From contig CAJQNR010000033.1 in the NCBI GenBank assembly GCA_905479715.1, positions 1 to 41,427 of the forward strand: a DNA stretch of 41,427 bases, given 5' to 3'. Positions 666-23,632 of the stretch are shown here, piece by piece. The stretch's first letter is position 1; each line of letters opens with the position of its first letter. A program made the translations under genes and the position numbers. The notes under the pieces are model-generated. The model had not been told where the DNA came from. It ran no database searches and saw only the letters and a program-made list of their open reading frames with translations. The stretch comes from an uncultured Sphingorhabdus sp. (lineage in GTDB: Bacteria > Pseudomonadota > Alphaproteobacteria > Sphingomonadales > Sphingomonadaceae).

Positions 666-681
666 TTAATCGTGCAGTTAA
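666..681. promoter_or_regulatory. TTAATCG-type palindrome, operator candidate A
   Basis: TTAATCGTGCAGTTAA differs from a perfect TTAATCG-N2-CGATTAA palindrome at two positions of the right arm. It lies 64 bp upstream of the acyl-CoA synthetase start at 602. It is the weakest of four related sites (others at 9617, 16527, 23617), all at starts of acyl-CoA genes. A TetR-type repressor site is inferred from size and symmetry. Confidence 0.55.
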
Positions 682-728
682 ATCAATGGATAGTCACAAC
701 AATAGTTGGTGCAGCGCTACAAAAAGCC

Positions 729-1478
729 CTAATTTTCTACATAGATATCCACCGGAACAGCCAAATCGGCGAAAATCCGGCCGATCGGAGCCATGCTGGT
801 GGCGCCCTGTTCAATTTCCGTTTCCAGCAATGACTGGTTTTCGGCACCCTTGAGCAGGACGATTACCGTCCGCGCTTCACAGATCGCGGCCTTGGTGAGG
901 GTCACCAGCGGCGTATCGCCATCGTCGGGAAGCAACCCGACCACCAGTTTTTCCGGCGGACCATCAAGCGCTTCTTCCATATCCGCGCTTTCCATAATCC
1001 CGGCAGTGCTGCCACCCTCGCCCATGCCGAGCCAGACCAGATCCGCAGGCCATTTGGTATCGCGCAACCGCGCATCGGCGGCGGCTCCAGCCATATGATA
1101 ATCCTCGTGATCCGGTGCCAGTGGCAGCACCCGCGCACCGCGGGTCAGAAACAGTTGCGCCAGTGTCTTGACGTGACTGCGCGGATCATCGAGCGGTATC
1201 AGCAAGTCATCGGTCGGGATAATCGTGACATGTTTCCACTTGATCTGCTTTTCTGCCAGCGCCTCAAGCACCGGCATCGCTTCGTCACTAACAGGCAAGG
1301 CGAGCAAGGCATCGCCGCGCGCATCAAGAGCGCTTTCGATAATGAACTGGATGTCGCTGGCAATTGCCTCGATCATCTCGGCGGAATCATCAAAATCCCA
1401 CCATTCGAGCATCGATTCCTCGTCTTCCGGCATGTCATCCATGTCAAAATTTTCTAATGCATCTTCGAGTTTGCTCAT
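729..1478 (-). CDS. 6-phosphogluconolactonase-like protein with altered active-site motif
   Basis: Resembles 6-phosphogluconolactonase (SugI/NagB-like fold), which hydrolyses 6-phosphogluconolactone in the oxidative pentose phosphate and Entner-Doudoroff routes. The protein is 249 residues from the ATG at 1478; a GTG one codon upstream is also possible. Family landmarks are LPVSDEAMPVLEAL (61-74), the WKHVTIIPTDD block (81-91, normally ending DER) and LGMGEGGSTAG (150-160, normally GMGxDGHTAS). The histidine regarded as catalytic in the family is replaced by Ser157. The first ~30 residues are an acidic extension. It stands alone between the synthetase and purU. The fold looks right, but lactonase activity is doubtful; it could be a divergent paralogue or a sphingomonad variant. 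Confidence 0.75.
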   Translation of the reverse strand: MSKLEDALENFDMDDMPEDEESMLEWWDFDDSAEMIEAIASDIQFIIESALDARGDALLALPVSDEAMPVLEALAEKQIKWKHVTIIPTDDLLIPLDDPRSHVKTLAQLFLTRGARVLPLAPDHEDYHMAGAAADARLRDTKWPADLVWLGMGEGGSTAGIMESADMEEALDGPPEKLVVGLLPDDGDTPLVTLTKAAICEARTVIVLLKGAENQSLLETEIEQGATSMAPIGRIFADLAVPVDIYVEN

Positions 1479-1604
1479 CACAATATCCAGATCTGTATCA
1501 ACTATCCCGCGCTTCTAATCGCTGCACACATCAGCACAAGGGAAAATCCCGCTTTTCAAATTCGAAACTTTGCGCCAATTGGGGCCGGAAAAGGCGATTT
1601 ACAT

Positions 1605-2465
1605 ATGACTGACAATTATATTCTAACCTTCACCGCAGAAGACCGGGTCGGCCTCGTTGCTGCCGTGGCCGGATTTCTGGCGGAGTATGAAGGCTTCATT
1701 CTTGACAGCCAGCAATATGCCGACCTTGACCAGAAACGCTTTTTCATGCGGGTCGAGTTCACGAGCGCGGGCGAGAAATTTCCGTCGAGCCTTGATGCGC
1801 TGACCGAGAAATTTTCGGTGATCGGCAAGCAATATGCGCTCGACTGGACCCTGGTGAGCGGCGCGGTGAAACCCAATATCGTGATCGCGGTTTCAAAAGG
1901 CAGCCACTGTCTCAACGATCTGCTCCACCGCTGGAAAACCGGCGGATTGCCCGTCAATATTGTCGCCGTGGTCAGCAATCATGAAAATTTGCGCGACCTG
2001 ACGGAATGGCATGGCGTATCGTTCCATTATTTCCCGGTTTCCGACGAAAATCGCGCGGAACAGGAACAGCAAATATTGGATATCATGGATCAAAACAGCG
2101 CGGAATATCTTATTCTTGCGCGCTATATGCAGATCTTGTCGGACAATATGAGCGAGAAGCTGGCCGGACGCGGCATCAATATTCACCACAGTTTCCTGCC
2201 CGGCTTCAAGGGCGCGAAACCCTATCACCGTGCCCATGCGCGCGGCGTCAAGCTGATCGGCGCGACAGCCCATTTCATCAGCAAGGACCTCGATGAAGGA
2301 CCGATTATCGAACAGGCGGTTGACCGCGTCGACCATCGGGCCAGCGTGGAAGACATGATCCGGATCGGCCGCGATATCGAGGCACAGGTTCTGGCCAAGG
2401 CGGTCAAATGGGCCGGCGAACATCGCATATTGCTCAACGGCAACCGGACTGTGGTGTTTCGCTAA
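1605..2465 (+). CDS. purU: Formyltetrahydrofolate deformylase
   Basis: Hydrolyses 10-formyltetrahydrofolate to formate and tetrahydrofolate, balancing one-carbon pools and supplying formate for purine synthesis. The 286-residue protein is of normal family length. An N-terminal ACT domain (about 5-85, opening ILTFTAEDRVGLVAAVAGF) is followed by a formyltransferase-type domain (about 90-280). The catalytic triad of the GART fold is recognisable as Asn192 and His194 in NIHHSFLPGFKGAKPYHRA and Asp230 in DLDEGP. The ATG at 1605 has only a weak AAAGG upstream, but the ACT domain starts immediately, so no other start fits. It is monocistronic, with a short gap to the next gene. The assignment is secure. 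Confidence 0.95.
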   Translation: MTDNYILTFTAEDRVGLVAAVAGFLAEYEGFILDSQQYADLDQKRFFMRVEFTSAGEKFPSSLDALTEKFSVIGKQYALDWTLVSGAVKPNIVIAVSKGSHCLNDLLHRWKTGGLPVNIVAVVSNHENLRDLTEWHGVSFHYFPVSDENRAEQEQQILDIMDQNSAEYLILARYMQILSDNMSEKLAGRGINIHHSFLPGFKGAKPYHRAHARGVKLIGATAHFISKDLDEGPIIEQAVDRVDHRASVEDMIRIGRDIEAQVLAKAVKWAGEHRILLNGNRTVVFR

Positions 2466-2569
2466 CCATGCCGCCGCGGGCCATGATTGACGAATAGCCC
2501 TCACACTGATATAGTGCATTAATACAGCAACATAGCTGTGGTCTTTTTCTATGGGGGGAGGATAGAATC

Positions 2570-3316: not shown

Positions 3317-3326
3317 ACCGGTGGCC

Positions 3327-7303: not shown

Positions 7304-8458
7304 ATGCAAAGATTTAACTTCCCCGTCGTCCAGCCCGATCCGGCGCTTGAAGAGTTGCGCAGGGAATTGCAGGCGTTTCTGAAGGAAGAGCGCGAGGCCG
7401 GCAATTTCCGGCCAGAACCGGAATGCTGGATGGCCTCCGCCGATCCCGAATTTTCCAGAAAAATGGGCAAGCGGGGATGGATCGGCCTGACCTGGTCCTC
7501 AAAATATGGCGGCCAGGACAAGAGCGCGCTCGAACGCTATATTGTCACCGAGGAAACCCTCCGGTCCGGCGCGCCCGTTGGCGCCCACTGGATCGCCGAT
7601 CGCCAGCACGCACCGATGCTGCTCAAACATGGCACCGAAAAGCAGAAGCTCGACATATTGCCGCGTATCGCTGCCGGTGAATGCTATTTCGCCATTGGTC
7701 TCAGCGAGCCGGGCGCGGGTTCCGATCTTGCCAATGTCAAAACCAAAGCCGAAAAGGTCGCAGACGGCTGGAAAATCAACGGCCAGAAAATCTGGTCATC
7801 CGGCGCGCAAATTTGCCATTATATGGTCGCCTTGCTCCGCACCTCACCCGCCGATGGCCGCAACCGCCACGTCGGCCTGTCGCAGATCATGATCGATCTC
7901 AGCCTGCCCGGCGTCACCATCAAGCCGATTGTCGACCTGTCGGGTGACGCGCATTTCAACGAAGTCTATTTGGAGGATGTCATCGTACCCGACGACTGCC
8001 TGCTCGGCGAAGAAGGCAGCGGCTGGAAGCAGGTGACCGGCGAACTGGCAATGGAACGCTCCGGTCCGGAACGCTTCCTCTCCAGCTATATCACGCTCGA
8101 AACCGCGCTGTGGCAGCTAAGCGGGAAAATGGGATCGGACAGCCATGCGCGGCTGGGGAAGCTGATTGCCAGTCTGCGCACGCTGAAAGGCATGTCCTGG
8201 GGCATTGCCAATCTTCTCAAACAGGGTGTTTCGCCGGATACCGAGGCGGCGCTGGTCAAGGATCTCGGCAACCGGCTGGAAAATGATCTGACCCAGCAGG
8301 TCCGCGCAATGCTCAACGATCTGCCGCCCGAAGACTGGAGTCCGGATATGCGCCGGATCATGAATATGGGTGTGCTGCGCTCTCCGCCGAACACCTTGCG
8401 CGGCGGGACAACCGAAGTCATGCGCGGAATCACTGCGCGGCAATTGGGACTACGCTGA
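7304..8458 (+). CDS. Acyl-CoA dehydrogenase, large-type subunit (pair 1)
   Basis: FAD-dependent acyl-CoA dehydrogenase, 384 residues, introducing a 2,3-double bond into an acyl-CoA. Family signatures are the FAD/substrate segment CYFAIGLSEPGAGSDLANV (about 127-145), KINGQKIWSSGA (about 157-168) and the C-terminal RGGTTEVMRGI (366-376). The position that carries the catalytic Glu in medium-chain enzymes is Gly here, so the base would have to come from elsewhere, for instance the ER-containing helix near ELAMERSGPER. The start at 7304 has AAGGA upstream. It is followed by a second, shorter dehydrogenase-like gene, the arrangement of heteromeric alpha-beta dehydrogenases known from steroid side-chain catabolism (FadE26-FadE27 type). 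Substrate unknown. Confidence 0.93.
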   Translation: MQRFNFPVVQPDPALEELRRELQAFLKEEREAGNFRPEPECWMASADPEFSRKMGKRGWIGLTWSSKYGGQDKSALERYIVTEETLRSGAPVGAHWIADRQHAPMLLKHGTEKQKLDILPRIAAGECYFAIGLSEPGAGSDLANVKTKAEKVADGWKINGQKIWSSGAQICHYMVALLRTSPADGRNRHVGLSQIMIDLSLPGVTIKPIVDLSGDAHFNEVYLEDVIVPDDCLLGEEGSGWKQVTGELAMERSGPERFLSSYITLETALWQLSGKMGSDSHARLGKLIASLRTLKGMSWGIANLLKQGVSPDTEAALVKDLGNRLENDLTQQVRAMLNDLPPEDWSPDMRRIMNMGVLRSPPNTLRGGTTEVMRGITARQLGLR

Positions 8459-8481
8459 TGTCAGACAGCATGCATATCAAT

Positions 8482-8552
8482 CCGTTCGTCCTGAGCCTGT
8501 CGAAGGACAACCACGGGCAACAGCCGCATTTCGACAAGCTCAGTGCGAACGG
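8482..8552. repeat. Dispersed inverted repeat, copy 2
   Basis: Arms at 8482-8504 (CCGTTCGTCCTGAGCCTGTC and on) and 8529-8552 (ending CAGTGCGAACGG) form an imperfect inverted repeat of the same family as copies at 7217, 15154 and 18847. It fills the gap between the two dehydrogenase genes of pair 1. Confidence 0.82.
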
Positions 8553-8576
8553 CTCTATTCGAGGCATCCTTTTATC

Positions 8577-9620
8577 ATGATCAACACCGAAGGCATGGTC
8601 GCCGAAACGGCCTCTAAAATTTACACCGACCTATGCGGTCGTGAAGTCCCGCACGAAGCTGAAGCGGGCCAATATCCGCAGGCGCTGTGGGACGCGCTCT
8701 CCGAAAATGGCCTGCCGCTAGCATGGGTCAGCGAAGCCAATGGCGGGTTTGGCGCAGATTATGACGAGACTTTCGGTGCAATCTGGGCCTCCGCGCAGGC
8801 GGCATCACCGGTTCCTTTTGCCGAGACTTTGATCGCCAACTGGATGCTCGACCGTGCCGGGCTGGCCCCGGCCGATGGCAGCGCCAGCTTCGCGCTCAGC
8901 GGCCATACACCGAGCGCCGACATTCCCTTTGGCATGCACGCCGACAAGATTGTCCTGTTCGACGAGGCGCATCACGAGATTGCCCTGTTCGACAATCGCG
9001 TCGCCGTCCGCTCTCCGGAGGAAGCCCTCTCACCCGACGGCATGACGCAATTTGTCTTTTCCGGCCATGTCGCGGAACAGTCCGCGAAAACCGATCTGTC
9101 CCGCCGTGCATTCGAAGCGCTGATCCTGACTGTCCGCGCGGTACAGATGGCAGCGGCGATGGAAACAGCGCTCAATCTCTCGATAGACTATGTCTCGCAG
9201 CGCGAACAATTCGGACGGCCGCTGTCGAAATTTCAGGCGATCCAGCAGCAGCTGGCTGTTGCCGCTTCCGAATGTGCCGCGGCGACCATGGCCGCGACCC
9301 AGGCCGCAAGCGCGATCACGCGCCATCGCGATGATCCGGAACAGGCCTGGCACGAGGCCGTGATTGCCAAGGTCCAGATCGGCCACAGCGTCGAGGCCGT
9401 CACCGTCCCTTTCCATCAGGTTCACGGCGCGATGGGCTATACCCAGGAATATGATCTGCACCACTATACCCGGCGGCTCTGGGCCTGGCGCGATGCGCTG
9501 GGGAACGAGCATCACTGGTCAAAACGGCTCGGGGAAGAGCTGGCCGTGACGTCACCCGACCAGATCTGGAAAGGCGTGACCACAGGTGACTGGACGGACG
9601 GCAATCGGGTTGCTAGTTAA
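8577..9620 (+). CDS. Acyl-CoA dehydrogenase-like small subunit (pair 1)
   Basis: Shorter, divergent acyl-CoA dehydrogenase family protein (347 residues from the ATG at 8577, MINTEGMVAETA). The N-terminal helical domain is recognisable, the middle beta-domain is shortened, and the C-terminal four-helix part keeps the flavin-contacting SQREQFGRPLSKFQAIQQQLA and the terminal HQVHGAMGYTQEYDLHHYTRRLWAWRDALG. The last motif is typical of the partner subunit in two-gene dehydrogenases. The frame is open from 8370, but an upstream start would translate through the inverted repeat, and GAGG lies shortly before 8577. It probably forms a hetero-oligomer with the protein from 7304-8458. Confidence 0.9.
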   Translation: MINTEGMVAETASKIYTDLCGREVPHEAEAGQYPQALWDALSENGLPLAWVSEANGGFGADYDETFGAIWASAQAASPVPFAETLIANWMLDRAGLAPADGSASFALSGHTPSADIPFGMHADKIVLFDEAHHEIALFDNRVAVRSPEEALSPDGMTQFVFSGHVAEQSAKTDLSRRAFEALILTVRAVQMAAAMETALNLSIDYVSQREQFGRPLSKFQAIQQQLAVAASECAAATMAATQAASAITRHRDDPEQAWHEAVIAKVQIGHSVEAVTVPFHQVHGAMGYTQEYDLHHYTRRLWAWRDALGNEHHWSKRLGEELAVTSPDQIWKGVTTGDWTDGNRVAS

Positions 9621-9632
9621 TCGCGCGATTAA
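9617..9632. promoter_or_regulatory. TTAATCG-type palindrome, operator candidate B (perfect)
   Basis: TTAATCGCGCGATTAA is a perfect 16-bp palindrome overlapping the stop codon of the preceding gene and ending 59 bp before the nitronate monooxygenase start at 9692. It defines the consensus for the four-site set. Its location at a new transcription unit supports an operator role. Confidence 0.72.
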
Positions 9633-9691
9633 AGTGATTCCGGACGGAAGCAAACATGCTTCCAGATCTTCCAAAAACAGGAGCTAACCCT

Positions 9692-10669
9692 ATGAAAACA
9701 CGCATTACAGAGCTTTTCGGTATCGAGCATCCAATCATTCAGGGTGGCATGCATTATGTTGGATTCGCCGAACTCGCTGCAGCCGTATCCAACGCTGGTG
9801 GTCTCGGCATCATCACCGCATTGACCCAGCCTTCCGCTGCAGCGCTGGCCGATGAAATCGCCAAATGCCGCGAGATGACCGACAAGCCGTTCGGCGTGAA
9901 CCTGACCTTCCTGCCGGTGGTCAACGCGCCCGATTATGAAGGCATGGTCAAGGCAATCATTGATGGTGGTGTGAAGGCTGTGGAAACGGCCGGTAACAAT
10001 CCGGTGCAGGTGCTGCCCGCGCTGCACGACGCCGGAATCAAGGTGATCCACAAATGTACCGCCGTCCGCCACGCGCTGAAAGCCCAGAGCATCGGCTGTG
10101 ACGCGGTTTCCGTCGACGGCTTCGAATGTGGTGGCCATCCCGGCGAGGACGATATTCCGAACATGATCCTGCTGCCCCGCGCCGCCGACGAACTGGATAT
10201 TCCCTTCGTATCTTCCGGTGGTCAGGCTGACGGTCGCAGCCTCGTCGCTTCGCTCGCCATGGGCGCGGAAGGCATGAACATGGGCACCCGCTTCATCGCC
10301 ACCAAGGAAGCACCGGTGCACCAGAATGTGAAAGACGCGATTGTCGCCGCCAGCGAACTCGATACCCGCCTCGTCATGCGCCCCTTGCGCAACACCGAAC
10401 GCGTGCTGACCAACTCGGCGGTCGAAAGACTGCTTGAAATCGAAAAGGAAAAAGGTGCGGATCTGCAATTTTCCGACGTTATCGAGCAGGTCGCAGGCGT
10501 CTATCCGAAGATCATGAAAGAAGGCACAATGGACGCCGGCGCGTGGAGCTGCGGCATGGTCGCCGGTCTGATCAACGACATCCCGACCTGTCAGGAACTG
10601 ATCGACCGGATCATGGCCGAAGCGGAAGAGATTATCAAAGTCCGTCTGGAAGGCTTTCTGGCGGCCTGA
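9692..10669 (+). CDS. Nitronate monooxygenase family FMN enzyme
   Basis: TIM-barrel flavoprotein of the nitronate monooxygenase / 2-nitropropane dioxygenase family (related to FabK), 325 residues. It starts at the ATG at 9692 with AGGAG upstream (MKTRITELFGIEHPIIQGGM). Family features include the N-terminal PIIQGGM phosphate-binding opening, SVDGFECGGHPGED with the family His, and the FMN-phosphate loops PFVSSGGQADGRS and GMNMGTRFIATKEA. Members oxidise alkyl nitronates, but many in acyl-CoA clusters have no proven nitro substrate and may act as enoyl reductases or on other CoA esters. The gene begins 2 bp before the next SDR and sits behind a perfect TTAATCG palindrome, implying co-regulation with acyl-CoA genes. 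Confidence 0.92.
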   Translation: MKTRITELFGIEHPIIQGGMHYVGFAELAAAVSNAGGLGIITALTQPSAAALADEIAKCREMTDKPFGVNLTFLPVVNAPDYEGMVKAIIDGGVKAVETAGNNPVQVLPALHDAGIKVIHKCTAVRHALKAQSIGCDAVSVDGFECGGHPGEDDIPNMILLPRAADELDIPFVSSGGQADGRSLVASLAMGAEGMNMGTRFIATKEAPVHQNVKDAIVAASELDTRLVMRPLRNTERVLTNSAVERLLEIEKEKGADLQFSDVIEQVAGVYPKIMKEGTMDAGAWSCGMVAGLINDIPTCQELIDRIMAEAEEIIKVRLEGFLAA

Positions 10670-10671
10670 CC

Positions 10672-11457
10672 ATGGAGCCCTATCAACCTCTTAGCCGTTC
10701 CATTGCCGGCAAGGTCGCAATCATAACCGGTGCGGCCAGCGGCATGGGACGGGCGACCGCCCATCTTTTCGCATCGGAAGGCGCGCATGTCGCGGTGACC
10801 GATCTTGATCAGACGAAATGCGATGCCGTAGTCAATGAAATTGCGGCGGCGGATTATAGCGGCAATGCCGAAGCCTGGGCGCTGGATGTCAGCAAACCGG
10901 ATGTCATAAAGGCGGTTGTCGGGGAAATTGCCCGGTCTTTTGGTGGCATCGACATTCTCGTCAACAATGCGGGATTCGCGATTCCCGCCGACATCGCGGA
11001 AGAGAGCTATGAAGACAGCTGGGGACCAACGCTGGACGTCATGTTGTCGGCCCACCAGCGGATGATCCGCGCTGCCCTGCCCCATTTGCGCAAGGCGGAG
11101 CACCCCCGGATCGTCAATATCGCCTCGACCGAAGGACTCGGCGCCTCGCCGGGCAACAGTCCCTATGTCGCGGCAAAGCACGGCGCGATTGGCCTCACCC
11201 GCGGCCTCGCCGTGGATCTCGGCCGCGAAGGCATCACGGTCAACTGCATCTGCCCCGGCCCGATCCGGACCGGCATCACCGACGCGATTTCCGAAGAGCA
11301 CAAGACTATCTATGCCAAGCGCCGTGTTCCGCTCCGCCGTTATGCGATCCCGGAAGAGGTCGCGCATGTCACCCTGTCCTGCGTATTGCCGTCAGCGAGC
11401 TTTCTCACCGGTGCGGTAATTCCCGTCGATGGCGGGCTGACGATCAAGAACGCCTGA
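10672..11457 (+). CDS. Short-chain dehydrogenase/reductase
   Basis: Classical SDR of 261 residues. Cofactor motif TGAASGMG (19-26), Asp44 after the second strand (suggesting NAD preference), NNAG (98-101), and catalytic Ser152, Tyr165, Lys169 in NSPYVAAKHG. The C-terminal GAVIPVDGG is standard. Start ATG at 10672 follows the nitronate monooxygenase stop by two bases, so the two are probably translated together. A plausible role is oxidation of a hydroxyacyl-CoA or hydroxyl intermediate in the same pathway; the substrate is not evident. A strong bidirectional terminator follows. Confidence 0.93.
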   Translation: MEPYQPLSRSIAGKVAIITGAASGMGRATAHLFASEGAHVAVTDLDQTKCDAVVNEIAAADYSGNAEAWALDVSKPDVIKAVVGEIARSFGGIDILVNNAGFAIPADIAEESYEDSWGPTLDVMLSAHQRMIRAALPHLRKAEHPRIVNIASTEGLGASPGNSPYVAAKHGAIGLTRGLAVDLGREGITVNCICPGPIRTGITDAISEEHKTIYAKRRVPLRRYAIPEEVAHVTLSCVLPSASFLTGAVIPVDGGLTIKNA

Positions 11458-13092: not shown

Positions 13093-13851
13093 TTACTTCC
13101 CTTGCCAGTTGGGCTTGCGTTTCTCGGCAAAGGCGACGGAGCCTTCGCGTGCATCTTCCGATGTGAAAACCGGCGCCATGATTTCAGCCTGCTTCTTCCA
13201 GGCTTCTTCGCTGGTCCAGTCATAGCTTTCGTTGATGATCTTCTTGGTCGCTTTCAGCGCCAGCGGGCCGTTGGCCGCAACCGTGGTTGCAAGTTCGATC
13301 GCCGCATCAATGGCCGCACCTTCGGTCACGCGGTTGACGAAGCCCACTTCATAGGCACGCTGGGCGGTGAAGAAATCTCCGGTCAGAGCCCATTCCATCG
13401 CGACGCGCTTGCCGACCAGTTGCTGCAGCTTGAGAACGCCACCAGCCCCGGCAACCAGACTACGCTTGACTTCGGGAATGCCGAATTTCGCCTTGGCGTT
13501 GGCGACGCACAGATCACAGGCCAGAGCCAGCTCAAGACCACCAGCCAGTGCATAGCCTTCGACCGCAGCGATCAATGGCTTTTCCGGTCCCTTTTCGGTG
13601 ATGCCACCAAAGCCATAGCCTTTTACGGAAGGCGTTTCGCCGCGCAAAAAGCCCTTGAGGTCCATGCCGGAACAGAATGTTCCGCCGGCGCCGGTGATGA
13701 TACCCGCGTTGAGGCTATTGTCATTGTCGAGCTGCTCCATCGCCGCACGAATGCCTTCGGCTGCTGCCTTGGTCATCGCGTTTTTGGCTTCGGGCCGGTT
13801 GATGGTGACGATGATAAAGCCGTCCTGAACCTCGGTGAGTACTTCTGACAT
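13093..13851 (-). CDS. Enoyl-CoA hydratase (crotonase family)
   Basis: Enoyl-CoA hydratase of 252 residues adding water to 2-enoyl-CoA. Unlike the crotonase at 4321, both catalytic glutamates are in place: Glu107 in AGGLELALACDL and Glu127 in GIPEVKRSL. The oxyanion-hole segment TFCSGMDLKGF is at 58-68. Start ATG at 13851 has AAAGGAGA upstream; the open frame extends to 13905 but lacks support there. It is first gene of a two-gene unit with the alpha/beta hydrolase. A palindrome CAAATTT-T-AAATTTG lies about 50 bp upstream at 13903-13917. Confidence 0.93.
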   Translation of the reverse strand: MSEVLTEVQDGFIIVTINRPEAKNAMTKAAAEGIRAAMEQLDNDNSLNAGIITGAGGTFCSGMDLKGFLRGETPSVKGYGFGGITEKGPEKPLIAAVEGYALAGGLELALACDLCVANAKAKFGIPEVKRSLVAGAGGVLKLQQLVGKRVAMEWALTGDFFTAQRAYEVGFVNRVTEGAAIDAAIELATTVAANGPLALKATKKIINESYDWTSEEAWKKQAEIMAPVFTSEDAREGSVAFAEKRKPNWQGK

Positions 13852-13902
13852 AATTCTTTCTCCTTTATAATGAATCCAGCGAGAGCCGGGTCCGCATTCG
13901 GT

Positions 13903-13917
13903 CAAATTTTAAATTTG
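13903..13917. promoter_or_regulatory. AT-rich palindrome upstream of enoyl-CoA hydratase
   Basis: CAAATTT-T-AAATTTG, a perfect 7-bp inverted repeat around one base, ends 52 bp upstream of the hydratase start at 13851. It could be an operator or UP-like element. It does not match the TTAATCG palindromes. Confidence 0.35.
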
Positions 13918-14009: not shown

Positions 14010-15134
14010 TCAATCGAACAACAGATTCGCCAGTTTCGACCGCTGATAGGCCGCATCGCCGATCAGCGCGCCGCCCATGATCGCCTTGCGCCGGTGCAGC
14101 TGTGCATCACAGTCATGGGTGAAGCCGAAACCGCCGTGGAACTGGATCGACCGGTCGGCCGCCGTCGCATAGCTGCTGTGCGCCTGCGCCGCCGCCATCA
14201 GAACGGCAACCTCGCCGCGGCCCTGCTCGCCCCAGCTATGGGCCGCACTGTAAAGATGCGTCCGCGCTTTTTCATATTCGACATAATTGTTCACGGTCGG
14301 ATGTTTCAGCGCCTGATAGCTGCCGATAATCTTGCCGAACTGCTTGCGGGTCTTGAGATATTCGAGCGTATAGTCAATCACCGCCTGCGCGCCGCCGGTC
14401 ATTTCTGCGGCGTGAATCAGTCCTGCCGCCAATTCGATCTTCTCGAGCGTCTCGCGGGTCCGGTCAGCATCGAACAGGGCATCGGTCGAGACAGTCACGC
14501 CATCCAGCGTTACTTCATAGCTGCGCGTTGTTTCGTCGATCACGGTTTCGCGGCGCAATGCACCATCCGCCAGCGCCGACCGCTCGATCAGGGCGAAGCG
14601 CACCATGTCGTCGATCTTCACCGAAGCGATGATCAGGTCGACACTAGCCGCCCACTGAACCAGCTGTTTTTTGCCCGACAAGGTGACCGTGTCGCCGCTC
14701 ACCGCGCCGGTAACGTCAATATTGGACAGATCCCAATCGCCATTCTCTTCGCGCAAGGCGAGCGTTGCTGCCGTGCCTGCCGCAATTTTCGGGAGCCATT
14801 GCGCCTGCTGGGCTTCGCTGCCGCCTGCGAGCAAGGCCTGTGCGGCGAGGGTCGTCGATCCAAACGGCGTGCTCATCAGATTGCGGCCCATCTGCTCGGC
14901 AATCGGCACGACCTCCGCCATCGACAGGCCAACCCCGTCATGTGCTTCCGGTATCGCGATCGCCAGCCAGCCGAGTTCGCCAATTTCTTTCCAGATGCCC
15001 GGATCATAGCCAAGATCATCGTCGATCAGCCCGCGAACCTTGTCGACCGGACTTTTGTCACGACAGAAATTTGTCGCCACGTCCAGCAGTTCAATCTGCT
15101 CTTCGGTTGTCCCGATTGTGCCTAGATTATCCAT
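14010..15134 (-). CDS. Acyl-CoA dehydrogenase-like small subunit (pair 2)
   Basis: Acyl-CoA dehydrogenase family protein of 374 residues. The N-terminal helical domain ends in WLAIAIPEAHDGVGLSMAEV and the middle domain is shortened (LREENGDWDLSNIDV). The C-terminal domain keeps YLKTRKQFGKIIGSYQALKH and ends IQFHGGFGFTHDCDAQLHRRKA, the form typical of partner subunits in two-gene dehydrogenases. Start ATG at 15134 has GAGG upstream. It follows the larger subunit gene (15233-16447) after a 98-bp gap that contains an inverted-repeat copy. It is predicted to form a heteromer with that protein. Confidence 0.91.
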   Translation of the reverse strand: MDNLGTIGTTEEQIELLDVATNFCRDKSPVDKVRGLIDDDLGYDPGIWKEIGELGWLAIAIPEAHDGVGLSMAEVVPIAEQMGRNLMSTPFGSTTLAAQALLAGGSEAQQAQWLPKIAAGTAATLALREENGDWDLSNIDVTGAVSGDTVTLSGKKQLVQWAASVDLIIASVKIDDMVRFALIERSALADGALRRETVIDETTRSYEVTLDGVTVSTDALFDADRTRETLEKIELAAGLIHAAEMTGGAQAVIDYTLEYLKTRKQFGKIIGSYQALKHPTVNNYVEYEKARTHLYSAAHSWGEQGRGEVAVLMAAAQAHSSYATAADRSIQFHGGFGFTHDCDAQLHRRKAIMGGALIGDAAYQRSKLANLLFD

Positions 15135-15232: not shown

Positions 15233-16447
15233 CTATCTCGTTTTCGGCAATCCGAGCGCATGTTCTCCGACAATATTGCGCTGGATTTCCGAAGTGCCTC
15301 CGCCAATCGTGGCGGAGAAGCTGTTGAGATAACTGCGATGCCAGTAACCGTCATCGACCGCATTTTCGTCGCCGACATAATAGCCGGCCTTGGTGCCCTG
15401 GAAGGCGAGCGAAAATTCGGTCAGTTCGCGGATCAGTTCGGTGCGCGCCAGCTTGTTCATCAGCGGTAGCCCCATCGGCCGGTCCTGCATCAGTTGCGGC
15501 ATCCGGCGGCGGATATTGTTGAGATTGAGCGCCTGGATATCGATCATATATTGCGTCATCTTGTCGCGCATCACCGGATCATCGAGCAAAGGCTTGCCGT
15601 TGCGGAGCGACGTTTTCGCCAGCTCGACAATTTCCATCACGTCGAGCTCCTTGACGAAGAAACCGCCGACCGGCTTGACCTTGGCGCCGCGCTCATATTC
15701 CAGCGTCTTCATCGCCATCGACCAGCCATTGCCTTCGCCGCCAAACAGGCAGTCGGCGGAAATGCGCGCATCGGTGAAGAAGGTCTGGACGAAGCCATAT
15801 TCGCCGGTCAGTTTCTTGATCCGGCTGGTGGTGATGCCGTCGATCTTCATCGGACTGAGAAAGAAGCTGAGGCCGGCATATTTGTTCGGCGCGTCGAAAT
15901 CGGTGCGCGCGAGCAGGATCATATATTTCGCACGGTCGCCAAGCGAGGTCCATATTTTCGAGCCGTTGAGGACATAGTCGTCACCGTCTTTTACCGCCTT
16001 CAGCTGCGCGTTGCCGAGGTCCGATCCATTTTCCGGTTCGGAGAAACCCTGACACCAGATATCTTCCGCGCTCAGCATCGGCTTGATATATTTCTGCTTC
16101 TGCTCTTCCGTGCCGAGATCGAGGATCAATGGTCCTGCCCAGCCGTTGCCGATCGCGTTGAGCATGATCGGCGCGTCATATTTTTTCATCGCCCGAGTCG
16201 CCGCGCGCTGATAGTCGCTGTGGAGACCGCCGCCGCCATATTCCTTGGGCCAGCTGGCACCGAGATAGCCCGCCTCATAGACCTTGCGCTGCCAGTCGCG
16301 GAGAAAGTCAAACTGCTGGTCAGTCGACACTTCCATGAAGGTCAGGGGCAGCATGAAGCCGGGATCCCGCACGGTATTTTCCTTGAACCAGGCATCTGCC
16401 TGTTCGGTATAATCCTTGAGTTCCGCTGCACTCGGTTTGCCTGCCAT
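15233..16447 (-). CDS. Acyl-CoA dehydrogenase, large-type subunit (pair 2)
   Basis: Full-length acyl-CoA dehydrogenase, 404 residues. Motifs: the N-terminal GYLGASWPKEYGGGGLHSDYQ, the FAD/substrate segment IWCQGFSEPENGSDLGNAQ, YVLNGSKIWTS, and C-terminal GGGTSEIQRNIVGEHALGLP (382-401). A YER motif in LEYERGAK may carry the base used by long-chain and heteromeric enzymes; this is inference. Start ATG at 16447, with GGGAG upstream. It is first gene of the pair 2 operon, divergent from the molybdopterin oxidoreductase. The shared 147-bp promoter region contains TTAATCG-type site C, so both directions may answer to one regulator. Confidence 0.93.
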   Translation of the reverse strand: MAGKPSAAELKDYTEQADAWFKENTVRDPGFMLPLTFMEVSTDQQFDFLRDWQRKVYEAGYLGASWPKEYGGGGLHSDYQRAATRAMKKYDAPIMLNAIGNGWAGPLILDLGTEEQKQKYIKPMLSAEDIWCQGFSEPENGSDLGNAQLKAVKDGDDYVLNGSKIWTSLGDRAKYMILLARTDFDAPNKYAGLSFFLSPMKIDGITTSRIKKLTGEYGFVQTFFTDARISADCLFGGEGNGWSMAMKTLEYERGAKVKPVGGFFVKELDVMEIVELAKTSLRNGKPLLDDPVMRDKMTQYMIDIQALNLNNIRRRMPQLMQDRPMGLPLMNKLARTELIRELTEFSLAFQGTKAGYYVGDENAVDDGYWHRSYLNSFSATIGGGTSEIQRNIVGEHALGLPKTR

Positions 16448-16526: not shown

Positions 16527-16542
16527 TTAATTGAACGATTAA
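16527..16542. promoter_or_regulatory. TTAATCG-type palindrome, operator candidate C
   Basis: TTAATTGAACGATTAA has one mismatch between the arms. It sits in the divergent promoter region, 79 bp from the dehydrogenase start (16447) and 52 bp from the molybdoenzyme start (16595). One bound regulator could control both. Confidence 0.65.
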
Positions 16543-16594
16543 ATTGCAAAAAGCAATGGTCTGCCCCTGCTAAATTTAACATGTGGAGAGAAAT

Positions 16595-18826
16595 ATGGTC
16601 AGCGAAGCGTTTACCGGTCAGAAACATGTGATGTGCCGGGCCTGCCATGCCCATTGCGGATTGATCGTGGATTTCGAGAACGGCGTTCCGGTGAAAACCC
16701 ATGGCGACAAGGACAATCCCGAATTCGAGGGCTATAGCTGCATCAAGGGCCGACAACTGGCCAATTACCACAGTTTCGATACGCGGTTGCTGACCAGCTA
16801 CACCGGCATGAAACAGGGCGATAAACAGGCGGTACACTGGCGCGATGCTGCGCGCGATATCGCCGTCCGCCTCGAACGGATTATCGACGAACATGGCCCC
16901 GATGCGGTCGCCTCCTATGTCGGCACCTTCGGCTATAATAATGTCAACGCCCATGCCTTCATGCTGGCGCTGATGGAATCGATCGGATCGACGTCGGTCT
17001 ATGACAGCGTCACCATCGACCAGCCGGGCAAGGGCATTGCCCGCGCCCTGATCGGACCATGGCTTGCCGGTGCGCCGCGTGTCGGCGACTGGGACGGGCT
17101 GATGCTGATCGGCACCAATCCGGTGGTGTCGATGAACGGCGGTCTCGGCATGAATCCGGCAAAGAAACTCCACGATGCGAAAAAGCGCGGCATGCAGCTG
17201 ATCGTCATCGATCCCCGCGTCACCGACAGCGCAAAGCAAGCCGATATTCACCTGCAATGCCGCCCCGGCCAGGATCCGATTCTGCTCGGTGCTATCGCCA
17301 AGATCGTGATCAACGAAGAACTGTACGACAAGGATTTCGTCGCCGCTGATGTCGACGGGTTCGAGGCGCTCAAAAAAGCGGTGCAACCGTTCGATGCCGG
17401 ACCAGCAGCCGAGCGAGCAGACGTGGCGGCGGAAGATATCGTGCGCGCGGCACGGATGTACGGCAGCTGGAAAAAAGCCAGCATCAGCGGCGGCACCGGC
17501 ACCAATATGTCGGGCGGCGGCAATATTACCGAATATCTCAATCTCGCGCTGACCTCGATCATGGGCCATTGGCTGCGCGAAGGCGACCTCAACCGCCGCA
17601 CCGGCGTGTTCACCAAGCCAGCGCCGCCGATCGCCGCGACGCCCGGACCGATCCCGGCTTGGGGTTTTGGCCGCAAGCTGCACAGCCGCGATCTTGAACA
17701 GAGCATTTCCGGCATGCCGACTTCGGCGCTGCCCGACGAGATACTCACTCCCGGCGACAAGCAGGTGAAGGCGCTGATTGTGCTCGGCGGCAATCCGATG
17801 CTCGCATGGCCCGACCAGCTGAAGACCTTCGAGGCAATGAAGGCGCTCGATCTGCTCGTCTGCATCGATCCGCGCATGTCGAAAACCGCCGAACTCGCCG
17901 ATTATGTCATCGCGCCCAAGCTTCATTATGAAGTGCACGGCAATACAGCAGCACCGGAAATCTACGGCGGCTTTGGCGCGGGCTGGGGCTTTGAAAATAA
18001 TTATGCCCAGACCAGCCTGCCAATCATGGATTCTCCAAAAGGTTCCGATCTGTGCGAGGAATATCAGTTCATCCACGCGCTTGCGTCCGAGATGGACAGG
18101 ACGATCAAGGTCAAATCCTGGGCGCTGCTCGCCCATCCCGATGAGCGCGAGGAAAAGGCCACGCCATTCCCGCCCGGCGAAACCCCCGATCCAATCAGCG
18201 CATGGAGCGCATCGCTGAACGGCTGTCCGGCGGATATCGCCACACTATACGAAGATGAAGAGGTGCAGAAGGGCGGGATCGTTGAAGCACAAGCGCTGCT
18301 CGTGCAACCCAAACCCGCTGGCTGGGAAGGCAAGCTGTCGGTCGGCAACAGCGCGATGATGGAAGAGCTTTCAGAATATGCTGCCAAACTGGGGGAGCCG
18401 GTCGAGGACGGCGACTTCCCGTTCCGGATGATAGGACGGCGGATGACCGCGATTCACAACAGCAACTGGCACGAGGATCCGGTGCAGCGCAAACGCGTGC
18501 CGCATCACCCCGCCTTCATGAACCCCGCCGACATGGAGGCACTCGGCCTGTCCGAGGATCAGCCGGTCGAACTGGAATCCGCCCGCGCTTTCATCAGCTG
18601 CGTGGCCAAGGCCGACAAGACCGTTCGCCCCGGCTGCGTTTCCACGCCGCACAGTTGGGGCACCAACCCCGACGAGACAGAAGATCCGCTCGGCGCAGGC
18701 GGCAATACCGGACGGCTGTCCTATAACGACCGCGACTTCGACAAACGCACTGGCATTCCTTTGATGAGCGCCATTCCTATTCGGGTCAGAGCGAAGCAGG
18801 CGGCAGTGCTGGAGGCGGCGGAGTAA
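16595..18826 (+). CDS. Molybdopterin-dependent oxidoreductase with 4Fe-4S site (DMSO reductase superfamily)
   Basis: Cytoplasmic member of the MopB/DMSO-reductase superfamily, 743 residues. It starts at the ATG at 16595 behind GGAGAG; a GTG four codons upstream is the alternative. N-terminal cysteines Cys14, Cys17, Cys21 and Cys49 give a C-x2-C-x3-C-x27-C cluster motif. No twin-arginine signal is present. Several MGD-binding segments are visible, such as DGLMLIGTNPVVS and KALIVLGGNPMLAWPD, and a C-terminal MGD domain begins near FPFRMIGRRM. No Cys or Sec stands at the usual molybdenum-ligand place; the region reads VYDSVTIDQPGKG (135-147), so Asp, Ser or another ligand is possible. No electron-transfer subunit gene is adjacent. 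The reaction is unknown, but position and the operator tie it to acyl-CoA metabolism. Confidence 0.9.
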   Translation: MVSEAFTGQKHVMCRACHAHCGLIVDFENGVPVKTHGDKDNPEFEGYSCIKGRQLANYHSFDTRLLTSYTGMKQGDKQAVHWRDAARDIAVRLERIIDEHGPDAVASYVGTFGYNNVNAHAFMLALMESIGSTSVYDSVTIDQPGKGIARALIGPWLAGAPRVGDWDGLMLIGTNPVVSMNGGLGMNPAKKLHDAKKRGMQLIVIDPRVTDSAKQADIHLQCRPGQDPILLGAIAKIVINEELYDKDFVAADVDGFEALKKAVQPFDAGPAAERADVAAEDIVRAARMYGSWKKASISGGTGTNMSGGGNITEYLNLALTSIMGHWLREGDLNRRTGVFTKPAPPIAATPGPIPAWGFGRKLHSRDLEQSISGMPTSALPDEILTPGDKQVKALIVLGGNPMLAWPDQLKTFEAMKALDLLVCIDPRMSKTAELADYVIAPKLHYEVHGNTAAPEIYGGFGAGWGFENNYAQTSLPIMDSPKGSDLCEEYQFIHALASEMDRTIKVKSWALLAHPDEREEKATPFPPGETPDPISAWSASLNGCPADIATLYEDEEVQKGGIVEAQALLVQPKPAGWEGKLSVGNSAMMEELSEYAAKLGEPVEDGDFPFRMIGRRMTAIHNSNWHEDPVQRKRVPHHPAFMNPADMEALGLSEDQPVELESARAFISCVAKADKTVRPGCVSTPHSWGTNPDETEDPLGAGGNTGRLSYNDRDFDKRTGIPLMSAIPIRVRAKQAAVLEAAE

Positions 18827-19741: not shown

Positions 19742-20743
19742 TCAGAACAATCGCGTGAGCCAATAGAAGATGGCGCCCACCGCCGCGCTGGCCGGGATAG
19801 TTATGAACCAAGCCATGACGACCCGGCTGGCGACGCTCCAGCGTACGGCCGAGGCCCGTCGTGCCGCGCCGACGCCGACCACGCTGCCGGTGATGGCATG
19901 GGTCGTCGAGACCGGGATTCCCATTGCCGAGGCACCGAATACGACAAGGGAGCCTGCCGTCGATGCACAAAACCCGTTATGGTGATTGAGTTTGGTAAGC
20001 TTGGTACCCATGGTTCTTATGATCCGCCAGCCCCCGGAAAGCGTCCCCAGCGATATCGCCACATAGCAACTGATAACCACCCAGTTGGGGACATAAAATT
20101 CACTGCCGAGATAGCCGGTCGAATAGAGCAAAACCGCGATAATCCCCATTGTCTTTTGCGCATCATTCGCGCCGTGGCTGATCGAATAGGCCGCCGACGA
20201 GATCAGGTGAAAGACCTTGAAAACACCTTCTGCCTTGCGCGGCTGTACGGGGCGGAACAGCCATGCCGTCACCAGCATCAGCACCATTGCGATCAGGAAG
20301 CCGATCATCGGAGAAAGGAAGATGGCAACCAGTGTCTTGATCGTGCCGGACGATTCGACCGCGCTGAATCCGGCATGCGCAATGCCGGCGCCGAGCAGAC
20401 CGCCAATCAGGGCATGGCTTGAGGAAGAGGGAATGCCCTTGAGCCAGGTCAGTACATTCCAGAACATGGCGCCGATGAGCGCGCCGAACACGACCGTCGG
20501 CGTGACGACATCCTTGTCGATAATGCCTTTGCCGACGGTTTCCGCCACATGCAGTCCGACCAGCCAGTAGGCAGCAAAATTACCGAGTGCCGCGAAAATC
20601 ACCGCCGCAACCGGCGACAGCAGACGGGTCGAAACCACGGTTGCGATAGAATTGGCCGCGTCATGCAGGCCGTTGAGAAAATCAAAGGCGAGCGCGAGCC
20701 CGACAAGCCCGAAGAGGAGCGGGAAAGCGATGCTGTTATCCAT
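19742..20743 (-). CDS. pit: PiT-family inorganic phosphate transporter
   Basis: Low-affinity phosphate (metal-phosphate) symporter of the inner membrane, 333 residues with about ten hydrophobic segments. The two inverted PiT signature repeats are clear: NGLHDAANSIATVVSTR near residue 24 with GIPSSSSHALIGGLLGAGIA, and SISHGANDAQKTMGIIA with GIPVSTTHAITGSVVGVGAA. It starts 14 bp after the stop of the Nudix-DUF47 gene and is surely in the same operon. DUF47 (PhoU-like) proteins are commonly encoded with PiT transporters and thought to modulate them. Confidence 0.95.
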   Translation of the reverse strand: MDNSIAFPLLFGLVGLALAFDFLNGLHDAANSIATVVSTRLLSPVAAVIFAALGNFAAYWLVGLHVAETVGKGIIDKDVVTPTVVFGALIGAMFWNVLTWLKGIPSSSSHALIGGLLGAGIAHAGFSAVESSGTIKTLVAIFLSPMIGFLIAMVLMLVTAWLFRPVQPRKAEGVFKVFHLISSAAYSISHGANDAQKTMGIIAVLLYSTGYLGSEFYVPNWVVISCYVAISLGTLSGGWRIIRTMGTKLTKLNHHNGFCASTAGSLVVFGASAMGIPVSTTHAITGSVVGVGAARRASAVRWSVASRVVMAWFITIPASAAVGAIFYWLTRLF

Positions 20744-20757
20744 TATCCTGAACCGCT

Positions 20758-21888
20758 TCAGCCGTGGTCAATCACGAGACCATCAATCTCGTTCGCAACA
20801 TCTTCAAACCGGTCGACGACGCGTTCCATATGCTGGTAAAGTTCCCGCCAGATGATGAAACGCAGCGTGTCCTTTTCACCATGTTCCTGAAACAGTTTTT
20901 TAAGTCCCGCTGCGTGAATTTCGTCAGCATGGCCCTCCATCCGGACCAGTCGCTCGGTGAGTTCATGCAGGCGATCACCATTGTCGGCCACATCGCGGAG
21001 CAGCGGCATCGCCTCCGCGGTCAGACGCGCCGCATCGACGATGATCGCCGCCATATCGATCATTTCCTGATCAAAGCTGGTGACATCATATAATTCAATG
21101 GCACCGGCGGTTTTCTGCATTTCGTCAATGGCATCATCCATCGAAGCGATAAGGTCGGAGATGGCGCTGCGATCAAAGGGGGTCAGAAAGGTCCGGCGCA
21201 CCGTGTTTAAGACTTCGCGGGTAATTTCATCGGCATCATGTTCGCGTTCGACAATTTCACGAATATGGTCGCCCATTCCCTTGCCGCCCTGAAGCAATCT
21301 TGCAAGCGCATCGGCCCCCGCCACCAAAGTCGCGGCATGCCTTTCAAACAGGTCGAAAAAATTCCCCTGATGCGGGAGCAGGCGTTGAAACCAGGCAAAC
21401 ATAATATTGACCCCTGTTTTTTGTGCGACGGTATCGATGATATTGGTGGATCGGGTGGCGGCCCAGAAATCGGCTGCGCCGAAGGAACGGATCAGGTTGC
21501 GCAAATCCTCCTCATCAACCGCTTCCGCTGCATCCTCCAGCGAAAACCATCGACGCTCGCGTTCATGCTGCTCGTCCCAGGTTGACAGTTCCTCGGTCAC
21601 CGCAAAGGGAAAGACGCTGACATCGACCCAGACCGATGCGCCGTTGCGTTTCTTCTTGCGATAGCGATAGCTGCCAAGCGGCGTCGGACAGGTTGCGCCC
21701 AATATTCCCGCCTCTTCTTCTGCTTCCTGTGCGGCGGCACTGTGGGGCAGTTGGCCCGAGCCGATATTGCCCTTTGGTATGATCCAGCGTTTGGTTTCGC
21801 GGGAGGTGATCAGCATGATCCGCGCGGGCGCATTGACGGCGGGATCATCGGTTTTATAGGGAAGCGCGGCGATCTGCCGTATCGACAT
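20758..21888 (-). CDS. Fusion: DIPP-like Nudix hydrolase + DUF47 (PhoU-like) phosphate transport regulator
   Basis: A single uninterrupted 376-codon frame. Residues 1-135 form a Nudix hydrolase with box GNIGSGQLPHSAAAQEAEEEAGI (40-62). The canonical first Glu and the Arg of REUxEE are Gln, a variant seen in diphosphoinositol-polyphosphate-phosphohydrolase-like bacterial enzymes. Residues 163-376 are a DUF47/PhoU-like helical domain opening FAWFQRLLPHQGNFFDLFERH, which in stand-alone homologues begins exactly at this Met. An ATG at 21402 with GGGGT upstream could give a separate DUF47 product by internal initiation. It is directly upstream of the PiT gene. Whether one or two proteins are made, and whether the Nudix part acts on an inositol- or nucleoside-polyphosphate signal, is open. 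Confidence 0.85.
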   Translation of the reverse strand: MSIRQIAALPYKTDDPAVNAPARIMLITSRETKRWIIPKGNIGSGQLPHSAAAQEAEEEAGILGATCPTPLGSYRYRKKKRNGASVWVDVSVFPFAVTEELSTWDEQHERERRWFSLEDAAEAVDEEDLRNLIRSFGAADFWAATRSTNIIDTVAQKTGVNIMFAWFQRLLPHQGNFFDLFERHAATLVAGADALARLLQGGKGMGDHIREIVEREHDADEITREVLNTVRRTFLTPFDRSAISDLIASMDDAIDEMQKTAGAIELYDVTSFDQEMIDMAAIIVDAARLTAEAMPLLRDVADNGDRLHELTERLVRMEGHADEIHAAGLKKLFQEHGEKDTLRFIIWRELYQHMERVVDRFEDVANEIDGLVIDHG

Positions 21889-22202: not shown

Positions 22203-22661
22203 TTAACCGACCACGATCATCACCAGTGATGTCGCGATCAGTGCCGGCGTTTCGATGCCGTCAATCTCGACCACGACATTATAGGTCAGGAGCCAGCGGC
22301 CCGGCTGCTTCTCGACCGCATCGACCAATGTATGACGGCCACGAACCTTTGAACCGGCGCGGACAGGATTGAGGAAGCGGACCTTGTCAAAGCCGTAGTT
22401 GATGCCCATCACCGTGCCTTCGAGACCGAGCGTCGTGCCGTAGGACAACTTCGGCAGCAGCGAGAGTGTCAGCAATCCATGCGCGATGGTGCCGCCAAAG
22501 GGCGTTGCCTTGGCTTTTTCCTCGTCAACATGGATGAACTGGTGATCCTCTGTGCAGTCGGCAAATTTGTTGATCCGGTCCTGGTCGACGAGAACCCAGT
22601 CGGACACACCGACTTCCTTGCCCTTCCAGGATTCCAGTTCGCTTGCTTTGATCGTTGGCAT
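22203..22661 (-). CDS. MaoC-like (R)-specific enoyl-CoA hydratase
   Basis: Single hot-dog-fold hydratase of 152 residues. The catalytic signature is present: DCTEDHQFIHVDEEKAKATPFGGTIAHG with Asp39 and His44. It closely follows the bacterial MaoC pattern NodN/MaoC in length and ends without a second domain. The gene lies 25 bp downstream of an SDR that resembles the dehydrogenase part of peroxisomal multifunctional enzyme type 2, so the pair probably performs (R)-specific hydration and oxidation in beta-oxidation. Start ATG at 22661 is preceded by AGGAGAAAT. Confidence 0.92.
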   Translation of the reverse strand: MPTIKASELESWKGKEVGVSDWVLVDQDRINKFADCTEDHQFIHVDEEKAKATPFGGTIAHGLLTLSLLPKLSYGTTLGLEGTVMGINYGFDKVRFLNPVRAGSKVRGRHTLVDAVEKQPGRWLLTYNVVVEIDGIETPALIATSLVMIVVG

Positions 22662-22686
22662 ATTATTTCTCCTGTTTGCGGGTCTT

Positions 22687-23601
22687 TTAGCCCTTCATGA
22701 CTTCCTGCATCCGGCGGAAGAATTTGCCGCCCTGGCCACCGCCATTGGCATATTCCTGCATGCCGGTTTCGTCGAGAATCTGGTCGATATTCTCGGCGAT
22801 TGCTTCGGCGCTGCGCTTGTCTTCAGGCAGCCAGATACCTTCTGTTTCGAAGATTTTCGCAGCGGCATAGCCGCCAGCGCCGGCGGTCAAAATGGTCTTC
22901 GACGGCGCGCCATCGCTGCACAGATAGACCACGGCAGGCGTCACCGCTTCGGGAACCAGCATTTTCAACACGTCTTCCGGCATGATGTCCTCGGTCATGC
23001 GGGTGGCAGCAACGGGAGAAATACAGTTGATATGGATGCCCTTGCCAGCCCCTTCCTGGTGCAGGCTGTTCATCATGCCAACCAGAGCCATTTTCGCCGC
23101 GCCATAATTGACCTGGCCGAAATTGCCATAGAGACCGGTCGAGGATGTGGTCATCACGATCCGGCCAAATTGGCGTTCGCGCATATGATCCCAGACGGCC
23201 TTGGTGCAATTGGCGCTGCCGGTGAGATGGACGTCCATGACAAACTGGAAATCTTCCATCGACATTTTGTGGAAGCTCTTGTCGCGCAGGACACCGGCAT
23301 TGTTGACGAGAATGTCGACATGGCCCCATTTGGCAATCGCGTCGGCGACCATTTTCTCAACCGCCGGCATGTCGGTAACGCTGCAACCCGCGGCCATGGC
23401 TTCGCCGCCTTCGGCTTCGATTTCGGCAACCACCTGCTCGGCTACGGTCGCAGAGCCACCGGTACCATCGCGCGCGCCGCCAAAATCGTTGACGACAACT
23501 TTCACGCCGCGACGCGCCAGTTCCTTGGCATGTTCGCGGCCCAGACCGGCGCCAGCGCCGGTGACAATGGCGACGCGGTCGTTAAATTCTACTTTGCTCA
23601 T
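22687..23601 (-). CDS. SDR of the MFE-2/HSD17B4 type, (R)-3-hydroxyacyl-CoA dehydrogenase
   Basis: SDR of 304 residues with the features of the dehydrogenase domain of type 2 multifunctional enzyme. TGAGAGLGREHAKELA (14-29) is followed by an NDFGG segment (39-43) and the insertion ARDGTGGSATVAEQV; catalytic Ser153, Tyr166 and Lys170 lie in TTSSTGLYGNFGQVNYGAAK. The C-terminal extension past residue 255 is usual for this group. Start ATG at 23601 has AAAGGGA upstream. Palindrome site D lies 15 bp upstream, overlapping the likely promoter or leader, so repression there would be effective. It is first gene of the operon with the MaoC hydratase. Confidence 0.92.
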   Translation of the reverse strand: MSKVEFNDRVAIVTGAGAGLGREHAKELARRGVKVVVNDFGGARDGTGGSATVAEQVVAEIEAEGGEAMAAGCSVTDMPAVEKMVADAIAKWGHVDILVNNAGVLRDKSFHKMSMEDFQFVMDVHLTGSANCTKAVWDHMRERQFGRIVMTTSSTGLYGNFGQVNYGAAKMALVGMMNSLHQEGAGKGIHINCISPVAATRMTEDIMPEDVLKMLVPEAVTPAVVYLCSDGAPSKTILTAGAGGYAAAKIFETEGIWLPEDKRSAEAIAENIDQILDETGMQEYANGGGQGGKFFRRMQEVMKG

Positions 23602-23616
23602 GACGAGTCCCTTTTG

Positions 23617-23632
23617 TTAATCGAATGATTAA
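23617..23632. promoter_or_regulatory. TTAATCG-type palindrome, operator candidate D
   Basis: TTAATCGAATGATTAA has one mismatch between the arms. It ends just 15 bp before the SDR start at 23601, very close to the ribosome-binding site, which fits steric repression. Confidence 0.68.

Follow-up and report, generated by a model that had tools for sequence, protein, structure and literature searches.

A genome-wide palindrome before acyl-CoA catabolism genes in Sphingorhabdus and its predicted TetR-type regulator

Introduction

KstR (Rv3574) is a TetR-type regulator that recognizes the operator TnnAACnnGTTnnA, is autoregulated and controls a large lipid-catabolism regulon, and its motif was reported in 16 and 31 further instances in two species (PMC1995591). 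FadP, a TetR-type regulator of fatty acid degradation, has been reported as unique to Betaproteobacteria (PMC5343134). Here, a stretch of 41,427 nucleotides from an uncultured Sphingorhabdus sp. (contig CAJQNR010000033.1 of assembly GCA_905479715.1; hereafter the window) was analysed, in which four near-identical 16-bp palindromes precede genes of acyl-CoA metabolism. Sphingomonads degrade many lipids, steroids and pollutants, and among the literature matches listed, as far as their text was available, no global regulator of acyl-CoA catabolism was described for them. The palindrome, TTAAYYG-N2-CRRTTAA, is very probably the operator of one autoregulated TetR-type repressor related to the Protein Data Bank (PDB) entries 2QTQ/2RHA, which is probably released by a CoA thioester. 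The sites, their genome-wide enrichment, neighbouring genes and conservation, the regulator operon and its co-occurrence with the sites are read directly from the DNA.

Four palindromes in the window

An earlier note on this DNA, made from the letters alone, had reported four palindromes, and these were recovered at 666..681, 9617..9632, 16527..16542 and 23617..23632 with 2, 0, 1 and 1 mismatches to TTAATCGNNCGATTAA, the second being the perfect copy. With up to three mismatches allowed, the window gave five matches, against an average of 1.44 and a maximum of 4 in shuffled sequences. The fifth match (34016-34031) has three mismatches and a matrix score of 7.5, compared with 23.6-28.9 for the four sites, and was dropped; the note, too, saw no other site in the window. 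The distances from sites 1-4 to the start of the longest open reading frame (ORF) are 3, 23, 79/40 (a divergent pair) and 15 bp, within the limit of about 80 bp given before, although ORF starts were taken mechanically and the real values could be greater by some tens of bp.

The proposed identities of the adjoining units agree with the Pfam assignments. Predicted operator site 1 (TTAATCGTGCAGTTAA) lies 5' of an AMP-binding acyl-CoA ligase (3..662, minus strand; Pfam AMP-binding), of which the N-terminal 220 aa are present; the gene is cut by the contig end and its remainder is found on contig C118. Predicted site 2, which overlaps the final 4 bp of the upstream ORF 8370-9620, precedes a nitronate-monooxygenase (NMO) or FabK-like flavoenzyme (9656..10669, plus strand; Pfam NMO, with a score under the cut-off of the NCBIfam FabK model) and a short-chain dehydrogenase (SDR; 10543..11457 as the longest ORF, real start probably later, plus strand; Pfam adh_short_C2). 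Predicted site 3 is common to two divergent units. Leftward on the minus strand follow an acyl-CoA dehydrogenase of 404 aa (15233..16447), after a gap of 98 bp a second one (14010..15134; both Pfam Acyl-CoA_dh) and possibly, judged from adjacency, an enoyl-CoA hydratase as third gene (13093..13905; Pfam ECH_1); rightward lies a molybdopterin oxidoreductase of 747 aa (16583..18826, plus strand; Pfam Molybdopterin). Predicted site 4 stands before an SDR of 304 aa (22687..23601, minus strand; Pfam adh_short), which is followed by a MaoC-like hydratase (22203..22661, minus strand; Pfam MaoC_dehydratas).

Some neighbouring genes deserve mention in their own right. The molybdopterin oxidoreductase, whose operator is common with the acyl-CoA dehydrogenase unit, is a single-chain protein, weakly similar to formate dehydrogenase and NasC, with a 38% paralogue on contig C112 of the same genome. 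A wax ester synthase/DGAT gene (23679-25220), a storage-lipid gene, adjoins the degradation unit headed by the SDR, its 3' end lying 46 bp from site 4. After the SDR-MaoC unit, on the same strand, genes for a PHO4 phosphate transporter and for a protein with NUDIX and PhoU_div (DUF47) matches occupy 19742-21888; no operator link is claimed for them.

Genome-wide sites and target genes

The genome containing the window (2.86 Mb, 189 contigs, 89.5% complete) was scanned as the earlier note had proposed. With up to two mismatches, the palindrome occurs 26 times and the reversed pattern twice, which is not random density; the relaxed consensus TTAAYYGNNCRRTTAA at up to one mismatch gave 27 sites versus 3 in the control. 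The description of a "local" regulon was therefore too narrow, and a purely local regulon was rejected, since the 26 sites are spread over the whole genome and the sites are conserved before orthologous genes.

For each of the 26 sites, the longest ORF whose start lay no more than 160 bp to the left or right was taken as the target and scanned against Pfam; the gene caller was home-made and is wrong in places, and operon membership is judged from adjacency. As many as 22 sites lie 2-83 bp ahead of a gene for a catabolic enzyme or a TonB receptor, that is, just 5' of plausible catabolic or uptake genes and not scattered inside genes. Twelve of these precede families acting on CoA esters: acyl-CoA dehydrogenase (five sites), AMP-binding ligase (two), class III CoA-transferase (two), and enoyl-CoA hydratase, thiolase and carboxyl transferase (one each). 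Three sites precede TonB receptor genes, and seven precede less specific enzymes, namely NMO-type flavoenzymes (two), SDRs (two), an APH/DUF6285 protein, a flavin monooxygenase and a metallo-beta-lactamase-fold protein; at the APH/DUF6285 site an acyl-transferase gene stands on the opposite side. A P450 and an AtuA-like gene also occur near targets. The targets are mainly genes of acyl-CoA degradation, as in the regulons of FadR, PsrA, FadP and KstR. Steroid degradation as the sole function is not supported, because a consecutive run of acyl-CoA dehydrogenase, thiolase and FadJ-like protein on contig C134 also carries a site.

The relaxed pattern adds seven places to the 26, including the site of the tetR operon described below (C118:12614), whose distance to its gene also falls within 2-83 bp, and one 18 bp from an acyl-CoA dehydrogenase ORF (C74:1679). 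The other five are less clear and were not counted as targets: C32 (AMP-binding ligase 29 bp away, low score of 7.6), C69 (flavin oxidoreductase, 33 bp), C55 (hydrolases on both sides), C108 (carboxyl transferase ORF 238 bp off) and C160 (methyltransferase/ABM, score 9.3). Separately, two very similar TonB receptor genes were seen on two contigs (L007:1-1422 and L008:1579-3015), and both have an operator of their own.

Conservation of the sites

With up to one mismatch, all 31 other genomes of the genus that were searched contain 5-13 sites, compared with 0-2 for the control. A member of a second genus of the family (G032) has 11, and no site was seen in another three genera of the family. Outside the family, 24 genomes show 0-3 sites, their controls likewise 0-3. 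Promoter comparison across relatives, also suggested in the earlier note, found the sites kept 5' of orthologous genes. Site 1 is present before the ligase orthologue in 16/16 loci with room for it (19 examined, 3 too short). For the remaining sites 20 loci including the window were compared, orthologues beyond the fetched stretch not being counted: site 2 is kept in 12/12 NMO upstream regions, site 3 in 20/20 orthologous loci and site 4 in 8/12 upstream regions, being weak in one and absent in three. As a control, none of 81 regions upstream of 12 other window genes exceeded the same score, nor did any of 8 regions before the operon-internal SDR.

The weight matrix used here was built from 59 sites with up to one mismatch, and its symmetry is built in because reverse complements were added; its two centre bases carry almost no information. 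In the comparison of sites 2-4, scores for loci that contributed to the matrix are partly circular. One site in the related genome G031 (L080:5550-5565) lies between a metallo-beta-lactamase-fold gene and a cell-cycle TrcR-like gene; the TrcR-like gene is oriented toward the site and is unlikely to be its target.

The TetR-type regulator and its operon

A TetR gene with its own site had been sought, and one was found. A survey of TetR_N genes gave eight in the own genome and also covered five relatives, where two weak TetR_N matches lie near sites. One of these is a 228-aa protein of G031. Its relative in the own genome, 84% identical, was found by protein search only and is absent from the eight TetR_N matches there. 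The gene of this relative is located at C118:8965-9591 on the minus strand, about 6.9 kb to the left of window base 1. The first bases of the window (1..141, plus strand) are 100% identical over 141 bp to the end of C118, and one AMP-binding ligase is divided between the two contigs. Apparently the window continues C118 directly, across an assembly-graph break. The earlier statement that no such regulator gene is present holds for the window and fails just beyond its edge, on the overlapping neighbour contig; the contig break explains why the gene was not visible. In the single-contig genome G010, the TetR gene, the ligase site (3055019) and the sites at 3062113 and 3068935 are found within 22 kb.

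The C-terminal domain of the regulator matches TetR_C_9 (PF14514; E 1.2e-48). Its closest PDB relative by far, among 27 matches, is 2QTQ/2RHA (2QTQ, E 2.6e-97 over 204 residues), which we take to be a structural-genomics entry from Novosphingobium aromaticivorans, the organism being given by none of the searches. A literature search found no paper naming 2QTQ or 2RHA together with TetR, and one for PF14514 found only a software paper.

The regulator gene is the last of an operon ordered thiolase-SDR-hydratase-tetR, and the palindrome precedes the thiolase in 20/20 fetched loci. In named Sphingorhabdus, Novosphingobium and other sphingomonads, 69 of 70 loci have the site 0-38 bp before the 389-401-aa ORF that occupies the position of the thiolase, versus 0/70 for the reversed control, 10 of the original 80 loci having been left out for short upstream sequence; these counts and that of the further set below are not independent, because several named loci are the same genomes as others used here (for instance, L259 = L303). 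The named Sphingorhabdus and Novosphingobium loci stand outside the matrix training set. The sole miss, L286, has a palindrome about 860 bp before tetR. In two genomes, represented by L256 and by L259 (identical in contig to L303), the gene caller gave no hydratase ORF before tetR, and a weaker palindrome stands about 61 bp before tetR itself. A further set comprised 15 close-orthologue loci from other genera; in 11 of them the site near tetR is strong (score above 15). Antisense ORFs were called within the operon at L202 and L209, and all claims here rest on genes other than the large minus-strand ORFs flanking the operon. An operator at the operon of the regulator itself is what an autoregulated regulon would predict.

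Co-occurrence of sites and regulator

An orthologue of at least 77% identity occurs in 30 of the 31 other genus members and one of 56% in G032; no relative was found in the site-free G033-G035. G044 and G050 have only 35-38% homologues and no sites. The comparison was extended to 199 genomes of the family, the own one at 89.5% completeness and the remainder at 90% or more. An orthologue of 53-100% identity is present in 28 of them, 25 of which have 3-14 sites; of the 171 without a close orthologue, 161 lack sites altogether and 10 have a single one. Five family genomes with a 36-39% paralogue alone have no sites, and the paralogues, compared at four loci, differ in the recognition helix.

The three exceptions among the 28 (G120, G185 and G235, genus g87) carry TTAGCCGAGCGGTTAA or TTAAGCGTTCGGCTAA in front of the SDR gene located just before tetR. 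The corresponding loci (L294, L295, L296) show this shifted palindrome before an SDR-tetR gene pair together with the same recognition helix. Since a diverged palindrome occupies this position, the operator seems to have drifted, and this genus is a likely case of operator drift with an unchanged recognition helix.

Other TetR genes of the own genome were rejected as candidates. L060 is absent from G023 (100% complete, 6 sites) and has a 64% relative in G035 (0 sites), whereas L064 is present in 158/199 family genomes and is not discriminating. A 57% relative of L063 occurs in the site-free G033, and none was listed for G032. L057, L058, L059, L061 and L062 have no close match among the TetRs of G031 and G032 (best 33%, L061), a comparison made without three loci lacking a called ORF (L086, L107 and L132). 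Taken together, a real regulon restricted to part of the sphingomonad family, with this TetR as its regulator, is strongly supported.

Proposed mechanism and alternative explanations

We infer DNA binding, repression rather than activation, and the nature of the ligand; the earlier suggestion of a TetR-type repressor of acyl-CoA genes is supported. A dimer would occupy the palindrome 2-83 bp ahead of the leading gene in about 23 units of the own genome, which encode acyl-CoA ligases, acyl-CoA dehydrogenases, enoyl-CoA hydratase, SDRs, thiolases, class III CoA-transferases, carboxyl transferase and TonB-dependent receptors, and would block their transcription. A pathway intermediate, most likely a CoA thioester, may then bind the C-terminal domain and cause release. 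Because tetR is last in an operon with the same operator, the regulator would limit its own level. Repression released by acyl-CoA, as in FadR and KstR, is the best guess given the sites near ORF starts, the site at the own operon and the resemblance to KstR and TetR-type FadR.

Several findings weigh against this model. The own regulator scores 17.1 bits against TetR_N, under the cut-off of 24, and its orthologues in G031 and G032 also fall below it (22.2 and 22.6 bits), though the matches of the own protein to TetR_C_9 and 2QTQ are clear. G004 (genus g1, 67% complete) has 5 sites, and a close orthologue was not found there; 4/15 of the other-genera loci have a weak site only (g87 three times, G216), and site 4 is weak or missing in 4/12 orthologues. 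Among the five paralogue loci fetched, that of G044 has one chance-level match of 15.1, the others none above 9. The co-occurrence counts ignore kinship, the close orthologue being carried by 10 genera, and no probability is given for them because the genomes share ancestry. The regulator screen covered the TetR family alone. Finally, four of the 26 sites (C8, C14, C19, C31) have no fitting gene, where the control predicts about two chance sites; that on C19 lies 44 bp before the flagellar gene FliD and that on C14 112 bp before a TbpB-like gene.

The targetless sites would suit the view that the palindromes arose by chance or form a repeat with no regulatory role, which is scarcely credible given 26 sites versus 2 in the control, their conservation before orthologues and their near-absence from genomes without the TetR. 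It is improbable that a different, unlinked factor binds the sites and that the TetR only travels with a target operon. The thiolase operon would indeed co-occur just as its last gene does, and a screen limited to TetRs could miss such a factor; yet the weaker palindrome directly before tetR in L256 and L259, the failure of L060 and L064 to track the sites and the lack of sites in paralogue-only genomes, with their different recognition helix, argue for the TetR itself.

TetR-type activators exist, and depending on where the transcription start lies relative to the sites, the same operator and TetR could serve activation or dual control. This is unlikely: a regulator bound 2-83 bp from an ORF start would probably lie across the promoter or downstream of it, and two lipid-catabolism TetRs, KstR (PMC1995591) and FadR_Sa (PMC6449355), are both reported to repress. 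The inducer could, with a lower but appreciable chance, be something other than a CoA thioester, for example a free acid, a terpenoid or a steroid entering through the TonB receptors. The targets include these receptors and a flavin monooxygenase, with the P450 and AtuA-like gene nearby, and the sphingomonad regulator EdcR answers to estradiol (PMC8700777). On the other hand, the targets are united by CoA chemistry and not by one obvious substrate. This common chemistry, including the acyl-CoA dehydrogenase-thiolase-FadJ-like run, fits a shared acyl-CoA signal, and release by a CoA thioester is preferred.

Comparison with known systems

On balance, we favour the view that this is a global repressor of acyl-CoA catabolism, specific to sphingomonads and not previously described. 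It would stand in for FadR, PsrA or FadP without being their orthologue and would also control outer-membrane TonB receptors, and 2QTQ/2RHA would thereby obtain a function, an operator and a regulon. With a defined operator, a regulator gene and a target list, the question is directly testable, and sphingomonad genes that switch together become predictable from the operator.

KstR does not appear among the labels of the 27 PDB matches, though many of these labels are generic. The entry 3whb ('Fatty acid metabolism regulator protein'), compared here for the TetR-type FadRs, gives E 1.2e-4 versus 2.6e-97 for 2QTQ, and 2fbq, which we take to be PsrA, matches the regulator profile weakly (E 0.0025). 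The half-site letters were searched literally in papers, and the matches listed were all unrelated. Like the present regulator, KstR is TetR-type and autoregulated, with an N2-centred palindrome and a lipid-catabolism regulon (PMC1995591). It differs in being mycobacterial, from another phylum, and in its half-site, the consensus TTAAYYGNNCRRTTAA lacking AACnnGTT. The TetR-type FadRs of Bacillus and Thermus and FadR_Sa resemble it in controlling beta-oxidation genes, and these FadRs bind acyl-CoA (PMC6449355). PsrA and FadP likewise belong to the TetR type and regulate fatty acid degradation elsewhere in the Proteobacteria (PMC5343134).

Within the sphingomonads, EdcR of Caenibius tardaugens is also a TetR-type repressor of a catabolic cluster, but it is reported with the putative operator TnnCnnTACnAnTnGTAnnGnnA, a TetR_C_11 domain and estrogen dependence (PMC8700777). 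The palindrome studied here differs from that operator, and the regulator has TetR_C_9, not TetR_C_11. In the available parts of the sphingomonad steroid papers, other TetRs or other palindromes are named. The TetR regulator of PDB 2QTQ/2RHA remains the close relative, similar over 204 residues, and its solved structure gains a predicted role from the operator and regulon proposed here.

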